DNA of 33,931 nucleotides from Flammeovirgaceae bacterium (lineage in GTDB: Bacteria; Bacteroidota; Bacteroidia; Cytophagales; Flammeovirgaceae). How positions within the stretch are numbered: position 1 is the first letter of the stretch; each line of letters starts with the position of its first letter. The notes under the pieces were generated by a model that did not search any database, was not told where the DNA came from, and saw nothing but the letters and a program-made list of their open reading frames with translations. Position numbers and translations under genes: made by a program. The stretch covers positions 1 to 33,931 of the forward strand of contig JAHQVQ010000027.1 in NCBI GenBank assembly GCA_019634305.1, given 5' to 3'. Shown here piece after piece: positions 10,382-16,312 of this stretch.

Positions 10382-10411
10382 ATCTATTTGATTTATCTTA
10401 ATGCAATGATA

Positions 10412-10576
10412 TACGACTGTAATCGTACAAGCAATTTAAATACGACTAGTCTCGTATTTTTTTACATAAGTGGTTTTTTGAATGATTAAAAAGATGATTA
10501 TTCTACGATTATTATCGTAATACAATTATATACGATAATAATCGTATTATCAAGTTTTTGTACGATTAATGTCGTA
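10412..10576. promoter_or_regulatory. Array of five BlaI-type operators, TACGA-N6-TCGTA
   Basis: Five 16-bp palindromes share the arms TACGA and TCGTA around six bases. They lie at 10412-10427, 10441-10456, 10504-10519, 10531-10546 and 10561-10576. Centre-to-centre spacings are 29, 63, 27 and 30 bp, so most sites fall close to three helical turns apart, with one roughly double gap. They sit directly upstream of blaI, where an autorepressor would bind. All ten half-sites are identical, which is far beyond chance in a 165-bp stretch. The link to BlaI is inferred from position and from the family's use of dyad operators. Confidence 0.85.
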
Positions 10577-10681: not shown

Positions 10682-10707
10682 AAAAAAAGCCCCTGAAAAG
10701 GGGCTTT
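10682..10707 (-). terminator. Rho-independent terminator after the ompH cluster
   Basis: On the minus strand AAAGCCCC-TTTTCA-GGGGCTTT forms an 8-bp stem followed by a T-run. It lies about 25 bases beyond the last ompH stop and closes the uppS-bamA-ompH block. Confidence 0.9.
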
Positions 10708-10730: not shown

Positions 10731-11255
10731 TTACTCTGCAGGAGCAGTAGATCCACCTAATTTTTTAATTACTAATTCAGTGATGTCATATTTCTCATTA
10801 GCATAAAGGAACATTTGCTTTTGAAGCACAAAGGTAAATCCTTGTTCTTTTGCTACATCGTCAATTCCTGTTTGAACCTTTTCATATAATGGAAATAACA
10901 ATTCCTGTTCTTTTTTAGCCAAATTATTTTGAGCTGTTTGAGCAAACTCCTGTAAACTCGTATCCAGTCTTTGTAATTCTTGTTGCTTATCTTGAATTAC
11001 CTCTGGTATCCAGTTGGCATTGTTTTGTTGAAAATCCTGAAGCTTAGTTTGGAATTCTTGTTGTTTCCCCTTCATTTGAGCCTCTAATTGTTTTCCGTAA
11101 GACTCATAAATTTTCATCTGTGTTTTGTATTCAGGAAGTGCAAGCATTACACTATCTGAGCTTACATATCCAAATTTAATAGCCTCCTGAGCAGTTGCAA
11201 CACTTCCAAATCCTACAGTTACCATTGCAACTAATATGAACAATACTTTTTTCAT
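10731..11255 (-). CDS. OmpH/Skp family periplasmic chaperone (copy 4)
   Basis: Skp-type proteins are trimeric periplasmic holdases that carry unfolded outer-membrane proteins to BamA. The tracked ORF starts at 11321, but the signal peptide begins at its residue 23 (MKKVLFILVAMVTVGFGSVATAQ), so I place the start at 11255, giving 174 residues. After cleavage come the Skp beta-strand (IKFGYVSSDSVMLALPEY), a long coiled-coil arm rich in Gln and Lys (about 45-120), and a closing strand segment FVLQKQMFLYANEKYDIT. It is close in sequence to the next upstream copy (shared TQMKIYESY, NWIPEV and EKYDIT), which suggests a recent duplication. A 252-base gap separates it from that copy, so it may have its own promoter. 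A strong terminator follows. Confidence 0.9.
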   Translation of the reverse strand: MKKVLFILVAMVTVGFGSVATAQEAIKFGYVSSDSVMLALPEYKTQMKIYESYGKQLEAQMKGKQQEFQTKLQDFQQNNANWIPEVIQDKQQELQRLDTSLQEFAQTAQNNLAKKEQELLFPLYEKVQTGIDDVAKEQGFTFVLQKQMFLYANEKYDITELVIKKLGGSTAPAE

Positions 11256-11507
11256 CTTTTTGAATTTTTTACCTTTCACCAATTTTTCTCTGCTGTTTTT
11301 AGCAAATGAATACCAAGACAAAAGGATTTTATTTATTGATACATCTAATTATTAACAATGCACTAAATTAGTTAATTTATAATTTAGTTTTTAAATTATT
11401 TGAAAAATTTAACTATATATTGGAATAGTGCAAAATGAATTTTTCAGACTTTTGAGCACTCTATTTTGTTGAAAAAGCCTTAAATTGAAATTTCAATTGG
11501 AGTTTTT

Positions 11508-12017
11508 TCATTGATTAAGCTTCTCTATTACCATTTGTGTAATATCGTATTTCTCTGCAGAATATAGAAAGGCCTGATTTTGAAGTACAAAATCGAAGTT
11601 ATTCTCCTTAGCAACCAAATCAATAGTTTTTTGTACTTTTTCCAATAGAGGCATCATCAACTCCTGTTGTTTGTTGCTCATTGTAGTTTGTGAACTTTGA
11701 GCAAACTCCTTAATAGACTTGTCTAGCCCATTAATTTCTTTCTCTTTTTCGGCAAGTACTTCAGGAATCCAGTTAGTTCCATTTTGTTGATAATCCGTGA
11801 ACTTTTGCTGTAGCTCTTTTTGCTTAGCCTCCAACTGGCCCTGAAGTTGTTTTACATAAGATTCATAAATTTTCATCTGAGTCTGGTACTCAGGCATCGC
11901 CACTAATACACTATCAGAGCTGATATAGGCAAATTTTTGTGCTTCTTGAGCCTGAGTTCCGGCACATACAGCAATACAAATAACTGTAAAAATAAATGCA
12001 ATACTTTTTTTCATCAA
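11508..12017 (-). CDS. OmpH/Skp family periplasmic chaperone (copy 3)
   Basis: This 169-residue protein has a signal peptide (MMKKSIAFIFTVICIAVCAGTQA/Q) followed by the OmpH/Skp fold: FAYISSDSVLVAMPEY, a coiled-coil arm (about 50-115), and the return segment DFVLQNQAFLYSAEKYDIT. It should act in the periplasm as a chaperone for outer-membrane proteins. It is the nearest relative of copy 4, sharing the motifs noted there. The gap to the double-OmpH gene upstream is 106 bases and holds no clear terminator, so read-through from the bamA operon is plausible. A perfect AT-rich palindrome AATTGAAATTTCAATT lies 9 bases past the stop, but it has no G/C stem or T-run. Confidence 0.9.
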   Translation of the reverse strand: MMKKSIAFIFTVICIAVCAGTQAQEAQKFAYISSDSVLVAMPEYQTQMKIYESYVKQLQGQLEAKQKELQQKFTDYQQNGTNWIPEVLAEKEKEINGLDKSIKEFAQSSQTTMSNKQQELMMPLLEKVQKTIDLVAKENNFDFVLQNQAFLYSAEKYDITQMVIEKLNQ

Positions 12018-12123
12018 TTTGTAATTTTATTCACTCTCTTATTTACTGCTATAAGATTTTCTTAATAGAGATATTACAATAATAGAGTAAAGGTTATTTT
12101 AATCGTTTTTCTAAAAGTTAAAT

Positions 12124-13167
12124 TTATCTAATAATATCTGCAGGATCACCCAACCCAAGCTCTTCTAAAACATAATCTGTATAATTATGAATGGGATTGG
12201 CATAAATCATTGAAATATCATCAGTTTTGTCAAAAATAAAGTCCACTCTTTTATTTTCTGCAATTTTTTCAGTGGCTTCAAATATTTTTTCCTGAAGAGG
12301 TTTTATGAGGTCTTGTCTTTTGGTATAAATCAGTCCTTGTGCACCAAACTTTTCATTTTGGTAATTGGAAACAGCATCCTGCTGAGCGCCTATTTCCTCT
12401 AGTCTTTCGGCTTTTAGTTCATCCGTTAGAAATACCTGGTCTTTTTCATAAGCTTGTTTTAAACGAAATAGAGAGTCTTCCAAAAAATTAAGTTCAAGCT
12501 TCCAGTTTTTGGTAAAAATTTCCATTTCATTTAAAATATCTGAATATTGAGGCATTTTAGTCAATATTTCTTCTGTGATGATAAATCCGGATCTATTAGC
12601 AGGTTCAGGCTTCTTCTTTTTATCATCTTCTTCCTCTTCAAACTTCTGTTCAGCTTCCTTTTTTGGATTTAATTCCTCTATTACTAAAGGTGTAAAGTTG
12701 TGAATGGGGTTGGCGTAAATAATTACAATATTTCCTGCTTTATCAAAAACAAATTCCAGTCGATTTTTTTTGCAGGTTTTATTTATGGCTGAAATGATTT
12801 TTTTCTGAATGGGAACAATAATTTCCTGCCTTTTTAAATATACTTTTCCCTCGTATCCATAAATGTCTTCAATATTTTTTCGTACTTCTTCTTCTTTCTC
12901 TTCAATTTTTCCCAACTGCTCAATTCTTCTTTCCTTTGTCATCAAGACTTCATTGGCAGTATACTTTTTCCTCATTTCCACAATTTCAGCCTTACTTTGG
13001 TTGATTTTATCTTCAAAAGATTTAGCGAAAGTCTCTATATTGGATTTTGCCTCCTTGTATTCCGGATCCTGGCTTATGATCGTATTAGAATCAATATATC
13101 CAAAGCGTTGTGCTTTGATAGGGAGAGTGAGAAGTGAAAGTATTACAAAATTCAGGAAAAATTTCAT
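12124..13167 (-). CDS. Fused double-domain OmpH/Skp protein (copy 2)
   Basis: Two complete OmpH/Skp units lie head to tail in one chain. Using the tracked 369-residue ORF numbering, unit 1 spans about 42-190 (QRFGYIDSNTII ... IIYANPIHNFTPLVIEEL). A charged linker (EEEEDDKKKKPEP) follows, and unit 2 spans about 215-360 (SGFIITEEILTKMPQY ... MIYANPIHNYTDYVLEEL). Only unit 1 has a signal peptide. The ORF opens at 13233, next to the previous stop, but the signal peptide MKFFLNFVILSLLTLPIKA starts at residue 23, so I place the start at 13167. Skp normally works as a trimer of single domains, so a covalent pair implies an altered assembly. It follows the first ompH copy closely and is surely in the bamA operon. 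Confidence 0.88.
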   Translation of the reverse strand: MKFFLNFVILSLLTLPIKAQRFGYIDSNTIISQDPEYKEAKSNIETFAKSFEDKINQSKAEIVEMRKKYTANEVLMTKERRIEQLGKIEEKEEEVRKNIEDIYGYEGKVYLKRQEIIVPIQKKIISAINKTCKKNRLEFVFDKAGNIVIIYANPIHNFTPLVIEELNPKKEAEQKFEEEEDDKKKKPEPANRSGFIITEEILTKMPQYSDILNEMEIFTKNWKLELNFLEDSLFRLKQAYEKDQVFLTDELKAERLEEIGAQQDAVSNYQNEKFGAQGLIYTKRQDLIKPLQEKIFEATEKIAENKRVDFIFDKTDDISMIYANPIHNYTDYVLEELGLGDPADIIR

Positions 13168-13233
13168 GAATAGTTCAGTCTTTTTATCTGAAATAGTTTG
13201 TGCAAATATAGTGGAAGAAAAAAAAGGATTCAT

Positions 13234-13782
13234 TTAATTTTCTATCATTTCCACACCCAGTTGGGCTAAAACTTTCTTGGTGAGGTCTTTGGCTCCAATG
13301 GCATAAGGAAGAATCAGGTCTGAAGATTTATCAAAAACAAAATCAACCTTAGCTTTTTCCATTCTACAAGTTTTTTCCACTGCTTGAGCTACTTTCTCTT
13401 TTATGGGTAAAATTACCTGTTCTTCTTTGATGAATAACATGCCTTTGTAACCAAACCTTTTATTTTGAAATTCTCTTAACTCTAATTCTTTTTGTTTAAT
13501 AATACTTAGTTTTTCCTCTTGCATTTTTTCAGTCAACAAAATTTTTTCGGCTAAGAATTCCTGAGTAAGGTGATTGAGTTCTTGTTGTTTTTCATCAATT
13601 TCCTTTCTCCAGTTTTGAGTAAGGTTATCTATTTCAGCAAGAGCTTCTTTATATTCTGGGAGGTTTTCATAAATTACCTGGGATTCTATATATCCAATTC
13701 GCTGCCCAAAACTGAATTGAGCCATTAATAGGGTCAAACCAAGTGGAAAAAATAGTCTACAGATATAAGAAAACCTTTTCAT
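13234..13782 (-). CDS. OmpH/Skp family periplasmic chaperone (copy 1, next to bamA)
   Basis: This is the canonical ompH position, directly after bamA. The tracked ORF begins inside bamA at 13884, but the signal peptide MKRFSYICRLFFPLGLTLLMAQFSFG/Q starts at residue 35, so the start is set at 13782, 22 bases after the bamA stop, giving 182 residues. The mature protein shows RIGYIESQVIYENLPEY, a coiled-coil arm (LTQNWRKEIDEKQQELNHL onward), and VDFVFDKSSDLILPYA. It is more like the two units of the fused copy 2 (shared KRFGYKG/KFGAQG and DFVFDK segments) than copies 3 and 4. Expected role: periplasmic holdase feeding BamA. Confidence 0.9.
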   Translation of the reverse strand: MKRFSYICRLFFPLGLTLLMAQFSFGQRIGYIESQVIYENLPEYKEALAEIDNLTQNWRKEIDEKQQELNHLTQEFLAEKILLTEKMQEEKLSIIKQKELELREFQNKRFGYKGMLFIKEEQVILPIKEKVAQAVEKTCRMEKAKVDFVFDKSSDLILPYAIGAKDLTKKVLAQLGVEMIEN

Positions 13783-13804
13783 CAATGAAATCTTATTTTT
13801 GATT

Positions 13805-16312
13805 CTATCTGAATTGTTGTCCAATGGTAAAGTGGAATTGAGCTCCATTTTGACCTGGTCTTCCGGGTATCGGATCAAATCCATATCCCCAATCTACTCC
13901 AAGTAATCCAAATGCTGGCATAAATACTCTGGCACCAAACCCAGCTGATCTGTACATATCGAATGGATTAAAAGAAGTATAATCTCCCCAATTGTTACCA
14001 CCTTCTACAAAGGAAAGCAAGTAAATTGTTGCTGAAGGATTTAATGAAACCGGGTATCTCAATTCGAAAACATATTTGCTATAAACTACACCACCAGTTC
14101 CATTTGATTCTGTAGGTAAGATAGAATTATTTTCATATCCTCTTAAACCAATGATATCTGTTCCTAAAAGGAATCCGTTTTGGGCTAGACCATCACCACC
14201 TAAAATAAATCTTTCGAATGGACCTAATCCTTTATCGGAATTGTATGGTGCAAGTAAACCAAAGTTAAATCTGGCGTTTAATACAAATTTTCCCACTAAG
14301 GATAAGAACCACGAACTATCAAACATCCATTTGTGGTACTCTACCCACTTAAATCTATCCGAGTCAGAAGTTCCTTCATTAAAGGTATTTGCTGAAAATT
14401 TAGAGTAAGGAGGAGTTAAAGCTAATGACAATGAAATATTTGCCCCTCTTCTTGGAAATGTGGGACTATCTACACTATTTCTGGCTAATGTTGTATTAAA
14501 AGTTAGGTTGTAAGAGTCTCCAGTATTATATGATCCAAAACCCAATGAATTAAAGTTGTCTAATTCATAAAGCAAAAAACTCAATGAATTACTCATGGTA
14601 AACCAGTCATCGGGCCAGGTTAATCTTTTCCCTAAACTAACTGTTGCTCCATTTACCTTTAAACTTCCATATTGTTGGTTGGAATAATAATCAATCAGTC
14701 TCTGCACTGACCTATTGAAATTGATGGTAAATGAATTTGCCTTTCTTCCTCCTAACCATGGTTCGGTGAAAGAAAGGGTATAAGTTTGAAACTGTCGACC
14801 ATTCGCCTGTAATCTTAAATTCAGTCTTTGTCCATCTCCTTTGGGAAGAGGTCTCCAATATTTGAAATTTGTAATTCTTCTTGCAGAGAAATTGTTGAAT
14901 ACTAAGCCTAAAGTGCCCACAAACCCAAACTGGCCTCCCCATCCACCAGATAGTTCTACCTGGTCATTTGGTCTTTCAGTCACACCATATTCAATATCCA
15001 CAGTACCATCTGCATAATTTGGCTTAGGATTAATTTGGATAGTTTCTGGGTCAAAATAACCTAATGTGGCGAGTTCCCTTTGCGTTCTAATTAAATCAGA
15101 CCTGCTAAACTTTTGGCCTGGCAGCGTTCTTAATTCCCTAAAAATTACATGGTCATTGGTTTGAGTATTTCCATTAACAATCACCTTATTGATAGTAGCC
15201 TGTTCTCCTTCAAACATCCTCATTTCTATATCAATAGAATCGCCCTCCACCAAAACTTCTACAGGCTCAACACTGAAAAATAAGTAACCATCATCCATAT
15301 AAAGAGAGGTGACATCAGTACTATTCGGACTGAAGTTTAATCTTTCAGAAAGTTCCGACTGATTATAAACATCTCCTCTGTTTATTCCCAATACTCTGGA
15401 TAAATGTTCGTCATCGTAAAGGTAATTTCCTGTCCAGTTTATATCTCTATAGTAAAATTTTTCACCTTCATCGATGGTGATTTTTATTTTTACTGTATTG
15501 TCAGAAGATGGGAATACAGAATCTGAAACAATATTGGCATTTCTATAACCATTTTCATTATAGAATGCTATCAAGGCATTTTTATCATTTTCATATTCTT
15601 CTTCAATAAATTTGGTAGGTTTAAAAGCACTAAAGATACCCCCTCTTTCTTTAGTTTTCTTCATTTTCTTTTCCAGTTTTTTCTCCTCTAAAGCAGAAAT
15701 TCCTACAAACTCAATTTCACTAATTCTTACTTTGGATTTCTTATCGATATTGATCCTTAATACCACACTATTACTCAGAATAGTATCTTTCTCCTGCACA
15801 ATTTTAACTTCAGTATTACGATACCCTTTCTCAGCATAATGAGCTTTTATAGTATTAGAAGTGTTTTTTAATAATGCGTCTGTAACTACCCGACCTCTAA
15901 TCAACTTAATCTTGTCTTCAATGGTTTGATGTTGGCCTTTGGGAATTCCATCAAGGAAAATTCTCGAAAACCTTGGTCTTTCTTTTAATTCTATCTGAAG
16001 AAAAACTTTTGTTCCTGTTATTTCAGTTACAGAAATTTTCACATCTCCCAAAATTCCCTGTTTCCATAGCTTTTTAATAGCCGTTGAAATATCATCACCT
16101 GGAATTTTAATTTTTTGACCAACTTGAAACCCTGCGATGGATATGAGGGAATTTCTGTCAAGGAATTGTGCTCCAACTACATTAATTCCACCAATTTCAT
16201 ATTCTATTGGAGTACTATAATCTATGTTTATGTTATTCCCGAATTGTGCAAAAGATGCTATCGGGAGACAAAACAAAAGGAGGGTAAATAATTTTATGGC
16301 GTATATCTTCAT
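13805..16312 (-). CDS. bamA: Outer membrane protein assembly factor BamA
   Basis: BamA folds and inserts beta-barrel proteins in the outer membrane. This 835-residue protein has a signal peptide (ending IASFA/Q), POTRA repeats over about residues 35-430 (for example EYEIGGINVVGAQFLDRNSL and INKVIVNGNTQTNDHVIFRE), and an Omp85 barrel to the end. The L6-loop signature appears as IIGLRGYENN. The barrel ends FHFTIGQQFR; one Arg follows the usual terminal Phe. It starts 5 bases after the uppS stop and is followed by ompH, a classical Bacteroidota envelope operon. It is essential in known bacteria. Accessory BamB-E proteins are not encoded nearby. Confidence 0.96.
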   Translation of the reverse strand: MKIYAIKLFTLLLFCLPIASFAQFGNNINIDYSTPIEYEIGGINVVGAQFLDRNSLISIAGFQVGQKIKIPGDDISTAIKKLWKQGILGDVKISVTEITGTKVFLQIELKERPRFSRIFLDGIPKGQHQTIEDKIKLIRGRVVTDALLKNTSNTIKAHYAEKGYRNTEVKIVQEKDTILSNSVVLRINIDKKSKVRISEIEFVGISALEEKKLEKKMKKTKERGGIFSAFKPTKFIEEEYENDKNALIAFYNENGYRNANIVSDSVFPSSDNTVKIKITIDEGEKFYYRDINWTGNYLYDDEHLSRVLGINRGDVYNQSELSERLNFSPNSTDVTSLYMDDGYLFFSVEPVEVLVEGDSIDIEMRMFEGEQATINKVIVNGNTQTNDHVIFRELRTLPGQKFSRSDLIRTQRELATLGYFDPETIQINPKPNYADGTVDIEYGVTERPNDQVELSGGWGGQFGFVGTLGLVFNNFSARRITNFKYWRPLPKGDGQRLNLRLQANGRQFQTYTLSFTEPWLGGRKANSFTINFNRSVQRLIDYYSNQQYGSLKVNGATVSLGKRLTWPDDWFTMSNSLSFLLYELDNFNSLGFGSYNTGDSYNLTFNTTLARNSVDSPTFPRRGANISLSLALTPPYSKFSANTFNEGTSDSDRFKWVEYHKWMFDSSWFLSLVGKFVLNARFNFGLLAPYNSDKGLGPFERFILGGDGLAQNGFLLGTDIIGLRGYENNSILPTESNGTGGVVYSKYVFELRYPVSLNPSATIYLLSFVEGGNNWGDYTSFNPFDMYRSAGFGARVFMPAFGLLGVDWGYGFDPIPGRPGQNGAQFHFTIGQQFR

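Follow-up and report, generated by a model that had tools for sequence, protein, structure and literature searches.

Introduction

The closest described relatives of the locus analyzed here are the staphylococcal bla and mec systems, in which a dimeric winged-helix repressor (BlaI or MecI, PF03965) is encoded beside a gene for an M56-family BlaR1/MecR1 protein, and palindromic operators with TACA/TGTA arms lie at its own promoter. The copper repressors CopY/CopR belong to the same superfamily and recognize the operator RNYKACANNTGTMRNY (PMC7253601), a 16-bp dyad present in two copies per promoter in some species. In Clostridium thermocellum, a DAP-seq report on BlaI_0696 and BlaI_1845 describes ordered multiple dyads at the repressors' own operon, a tiny autoregulatory regulon and poor tolerance of deviations in the sequence (PMC8457756).

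The window, a 33.9-kb stretch of DNA from a Flammeovirgaceae bacterium, contains a blaI gene with the same general plan as the staphylococcal systems: a PF03965 repressor beside an M56 BlaR1-like gene, with palindromes at its own promoter. It differs from them in its operators, which have the arm TACGA and a 6-bp gap and in this BlaI clade usually occur as three sites around a Bacteroidota promoter, and in its M56 partner, which has no recognizable penicillin-binding sensor; in addition, no beta-lactamase target was seen. The window sites are 16-bp dyads like those of CopY/CopR, but lack the inner TACA-NN-TGTA, and the gene beside them codes for an M56 protease, not for a copper exporter. The C. 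thermocellum repressors are similar in having multiple ordered dyads at their own operon and a tiny regulon; however, they have two dyads per target and another arm (GTCTAT/GACTAT, resembling the ACTA-type arms of a sister clade discussed below), and interleaving with promoter elements is not described in the accessible part of that report (PMC8457756). Our search of the open-access literature found no study of a TACGA BlaI operator or of a Bacteroidota BlaI-M56 pair, which is no proof of novelty.

Results

The exact dyad TACGA-N6-TCGTA occurs in five places between positions 10412 and 10576 and nowhere else in the window (Table 1); dinucleotide shuffles of the window held a mean of 0.01 such dyads, and five were reached in 0 of 100. 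A sequence-only reading of this DNA had reported five dyads within 165 bp, start-to-start distances of 29, 63, 27 and 30 bp and ten identical half-sites, all of which were exact on recount. It had also set the TACGA arm apart from the classical TACA/TGTA, and the TACA-NN-TGTA core of bla/mec/cop operators is indeed absent from all five sites and was found in just 1/94 promoters of the clade described below. Because the dyads lie between blaI and the terminator-like hairpin that sets the upstream Skp/OmpH-like gene apart from the blaI promoters, we regard them as part of the blaI promoter region. The adjoining positions 10731-16312 hold a BamA-like gene, then four Skp/OmpH-like genes, one of which (12124-13233) has an apparently duplicated domain.

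Table 1. Coordinates of operators, promoter elements and genes at the blaI locus of the window
Feature	Position	Strand	Sequence or remark
O1 operator, 5' of P1 -33 element	10561..10576	-	TACGACATTAATCGTA; about -58 to -43 from inferred start; homologues alike
P1 -33 element TTG	10551..10553	-	From sequence; also sigma-70-like TTGATA-N17-TATAAT
O2 operator, occupies P1 spacer	10531..10546	-	TACGATTATTATCGTA, abuts TATAATTG; recovered in composite-element search
P1 -7 element	10523..10530	-	TATAATTG; consensus TAnnTTTG (PMC9723704)
O3 operator, across inferred P1 start (about -1 to +15)	10504..10519	-	TACGATAATAATCGTA; 27 bp from O2
O4 operator, 5' of P2 -33 element	10441..10456	-	TACGAGACTAGTCGTA; same-genus genome (L045) laid out alike
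P2 -33 element TTG	10432..10434	-	From sequence; 4 nt ahead of O5
O5 operator, occupies P2 spacer	10412..10427	-	TACGATTACAGTCGTA, abuts TATCATTG; recovered in composite-element search
P2 -7 element	10404..10411	-	TATCATTG; directly after O5; composite-element match
blaI, BlaI/MecI-family winged-helix repressor, 129 aa	9992..10381	-	GYTTTLK clade; presumed binder of O1-O5; PF03965, E=2.9e-25
BlaR1-like M56 metallopeptidase, 781 aa	7650..9995	-	4-bp overlap with blaI; PF05569, E=1.8e-34
Intrinsic terminator-like hairpin, upstream Skp/OmpH-like gene	10686..10707	-	AAAGCCCCTTTTCAGGGGCTTT then TTTTATT

By both sequence and predicted fold, the window BlaI is a member of the BlaI/MecI/CopY family. 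The Penicillinase_R domain spans residues 10-123 (89.3 bits against a cut-off of 22.6), and the AlphaFold model (mean pLDDT 74, about 90 in the N-domain and weak in the C-terminal part) matched 1okr (MecI), 1sax and 1xsd with E-values of about 1e-6 and TM scores of 0.65–0.69, the closest folds being staphylococcal MecI/BlaI. The model agrees with the MecI plan of a winged-helix N-domain followed by C-terminal dimerization helices, the latter in the weakly modeled part. Palindromic operators at the repressor's own promoter, a trait of the family, were predicted by sequence in all 94 clade promoters.

The dyad is tied to a single BlaI clade, which we designate by its GYTTTLK helix. An exact copy was found upstream of blaI in 94/94 promoters of this clade that we examined versus 0/53 promoters from other BlaI clades; already in the first set of relatives, BlaI proteins with the GYTTTLK helix always had 2–5 exact upstream sites and other BlaI proteins none. 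Seventy-nine of the 94 promoters come from named GTDB genomes (Hymenobacter, Pontibacter, Rufibacter, Chitinophaga, Niastella, Dyadobacter, Larkinella, Saprospiraceae and others) that were found by protein alone and were not used in motif discovery; at least one exact dyad lay within 450 bp upstream in 79/79 analyzable loci among the best 80 of 589 protein matches, a sample that covers the nearer members of the clade. When all 5-mer dyads with gaps of 0–12 were ranked, TACGA-N6 came out on top (79/79 promoters, 199 copies), and a quick BlaI tree placed the proteins with this dyad together on one side of a single branch, whose SH-aLRT of 90 is below the starred level. A search of 295 genomes of the class with the composite TACGA-N6-TCGTA-TA-N3-TTG gave 13 matches in 11 genomes, located ahead of a GYTTTLK BlaI gene (11/13), an M56 gene (1) and an alpha/beta-hydrolase-like gene (1), as compared with a single match for the reversed pattern. 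The sequence-only reading had proposed a comparison of related blaI promoters, and with the dyad in every same-clade promoter and at about background level outside blaI promoters, this clade-wide association supports its suggestion that the dyads are candidate operators of a dimeric BlaI-type repressor. Three clade BlaI loci with the same operators (L085, L120 and L153) come from metagenome-assembled genomes labeled Candidatus Aminicenantes or Oligoflexales, labels that may reflect either horizontal transfer or misbinned contigs.

The sites keep a fixed relation to promoter-like elements. The -33 element of Bacteroidota promoters is TTTG. Their -7 box has the consensus TAnnTTTG and extends from -12 to -5 (PMC9723704). 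In the window, two such promoters, P1 and P2, both read TTG-N4-operator-TATnATTG, with O1–O3 on P1 and O4–O5 on P2 and with starts inferred from the consensus; P1 also agrees with the sigma-70 consensus at 11/12 positions. When 77 promoters were aligned on the middle site, a TTG ended 4 nt before it (T 73/77, T 69/77, G 49/77) and TAnnnTTG followed immediately 3' of it. For the 71 promoters with an O2 site, TTG was present at the -33 place in 53 (4.8 with shuffled flanks), TAnnNTTG at the -7 place in 57 (6.3 with shuffled flanks) and both together in 47 (0.4 with shuffled flanks), the canonical pair being incomplete, with one or both elements absent, in the other 24. The 79 named promoters carried O1+O2+O3 (44), O1+O2 (15), O2+O3 (8), O1+O3 at 55–57 bp (7), a single site (4) or another set (1), and the conserved spacing in clade promoters was 30/31 bp for O1–O2 and 27 bp for O2–O3, with 24–26 bp also seen. 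A same-genus genome (L045) has the five-site layout of the window with changed cores. These alignments place O1 before the -33 TTG, O2 in the -33/-7 spacer and O3 over the predicted start, beginning a few nt past the -7 box; two tandem promoters with three and two sites thus account for five dyads with spacings of 30, 27, 63 and 29 bp, which would therefore be set by the promoter elements rather than by helical face.

We identified no recognizable penicillin-binding or transpeptidase domain in a domain search of the window M56 protein and two homologues, and the protein scored 112.7 bits against the NCBIfam BlaR1 model (cut-off 400), with all BlaR1 models far below their cut-offs. Therefore "bla" is best read here as a family name and not a function, and the inducing signal need not be a beta-lactam. 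The pairing of the two genes is common: an ORF bearing HExxH begins by the blaI stop in 73/79 named loci, and several of the six others are accounted for by contig ends or gene overlap. In one genome (G038) blaI and the M56 gene are on separate contigs (L186, G038:C10, and L189, G038:C65), each with a promoter interleaved with TACGA operators, which argues that the link between BlaI and protease goes beyond mere adjacency. In the M56 protein of a second pair in the source genome (L007, 153-2858, G000:C17), the protease domain is followed by a Plug domain of TonB receptors and by a sorting tail for type IX secretion.

A scan of the source genome (5.43 Mb, 85% complete) found nine exact dyads: the five in the window, two upstream of the second blaI-M56 pair on contig C17, and one each ahead of MacB_PCD/FtsX permease genes on C61 (a single site, 34 bp ahead) and C322 (137 bp ahead); its remaining BlaI genes, all of another clade, had none. 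The C61-type site was found in four genomes (the source, G001, G002 and G011) at 33–36 bp from the start codon, its core differing between them, i.e., at orthologues in the same genus and a second genus and at a related permease in a third genome, whereas conservation of the C322 site was looked for in two relatives and not found; that site is possibly background. The family is large, with about 40 MacB/FtsX-like paralogs in the source genome and about 30–50 matches per genome in G000, G001 and G002. Allowing one mismatch added 26 sites, mostly uninformative, and same-family genomes in which no clade BlaI was seen have roughly 1–8 exact sites each, those listed being single and scattered, i.e., background. 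A large regulon was rejected on the basis of the nine exact sites and this background scatter. From the conservation of the C61 site and not the C322 site, the regulon is likely tiny, comprising the two blaI-M56 operons and one MacB/FtsX-like permease; the dyad had been offered as a search key for the regulon and is usable as such, but what it retrieves is almost entirely autoregulation, and no beta-lactamase gene marked by the dyad was seen.

The same genomes also encode BlaI proteins of other clades, which have dyads of their own. The form [ATG]ACTA-N6-TAGT[TAC] was present in 34/53 of their promoters and in 0/94 TACGA-clade promoters, and in 14/34 it lay within a ~20-bp TTG..TAnnNTTG spacer (0.4 when shuffled); part of the remaining promoters had AACT-N8-AGTT, TACGA-N5-TCGTA or TACA-NN-TGTA. 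The YNTVSTI clade (L001, L002, L013–L028 and others) has AACTA-N6-TAGTT or TACTA-N6-TAGTA in 2–4 copies per promoter, often in the -33/-7 spacer. The small PPYTTLAST clade (L064, L074) has TACGA-N5-TCGTA, with a gap one base shorter, at three sites in two promoters, and the TTVATLLKR clade of the same phylum (L047, L071; L059 imperfect) has the classical-looking dyad CTACATTTGTAG; these small clades rest on 2–9 sequences each and are leads only. The idea that Lys48 of GYTTTLK alone reads the G of TACGA was not supported, as the TACGA-N5 clade is without that lysine.

Discussion

Sequence comparison establishes the sites, their link to one BlaI clade, their placement on promoter-like elements and their conservation. 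We consider it highly probable that the five dyads are the sites of the adjacent BlaI at two tandem housekeeping-type promoters, serving an autorepression relieved via the M56 protein. One BlaI dimer would occupy each dyad: at P1 just 5' of the -33 TTG (O1), in the -33/-7 spacer (O2) and over the start (O3), and at P2 at the first two of these places (O4 and O5). The bound dimers would keep sigma factor and RNA polymerase off the promoter and so shut the blaI-M56 operon, an occlusion that we infer from the geometry of the sites. An envelope signal might then activate the M56 membrane protease and lead to inactivation of BlaI, opening the operon together with a few outlying targets, chiefly the MacB/FtsX-like permease; cleavage of BlaI by the M56 protein is expected by analogy with staphylococcal BlaR1/MecR1.

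The sequence-only reading had explained the spacing differently, by dimers cooperating on one face of the DNA at about three helical turns, independently of the promoter. At 10.5 bp per turn the steps of 29, 30 and 63 bp correspond to 2.76, 2.86 and 6.00 turns and the 30/31-bp steps of the clade to about 2.9–2.95, and O1 and O2 may contact each other; however, the 27-bp step that dominates O2–O3 is 2.57 turns, nearly half a turn off phase, steps of 24–26 bp also occur, and in promoters with no exact O2 the distance from O1 to O3 is still 55–57 bp (5.2–5.4 turns). As the spacings follow the places of the -33 and -7 elements, we reject one-face binding as the main explanation and find it unlikely in general.

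It is more improbable still that a transcription factor unlinked to the locus binds the dyads and controls blaI from outside: the dyad is perfectly tied to one BlaI clade and absent from the paralogs, sister clades carry AACTA-N6-TAGTT, alike in form and gap, and in genomes such as G020, G021, G026 and G029 every exact site is a blaI promoter site. Each palindrome could form a 5-bp stem in RNA, but a role as leader or terminator hairpins is very hard to credit, with O1 and O2 upstream of the inferred start and hence outside the P1 transcript, the stems short and with no T tract, and the sites abutting promoter elements. A chance cluster in A+T-rich DNA can be dismissed for practical purposes, given the shuffles, the same-genus genome whose layout is identical although its cores differ, and conservation across the clade; the arrangement is real by sequence comparison, because the same design precedes the BlaI genes of all 94 relatives examined.

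Operation by the adjacent BlaI at its own promoters therefore remains our preferred reading, and by sequence the window system appears to be a real, well-conserved variant of BlaI autoregulation; several dyads in ordered array and a very small regulon centered on the repressor itself are already known from the BlaI proteins of C. thermocellum (PMC8457756). Since the sister clades use other dyads, mainly AACTA-N6-TAGTT, the paralogs look insulated from one another. More tentatively, and at a little under even credence, a clade-specific dyad code, often set in the 20-bp spacer, may let several BlaI-M56 circuits coexist without cross-talk, the TACGA circuit being a non-beta-lactam envelope-stress switch for itself and the MacB/FtsX-like permease.

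BlaI-M56 pairs, which are common in Bacteroidota, take their name from beta-lactam resistance, although the pair in the window has no recognizable penicillin sensor. The exact clade-wide operator and the fixed promoter layout make a clean reporter and search key, with targets readable from genomes, and the BlaI clades form a natural series for studying how paralogs avoid each other's sites.
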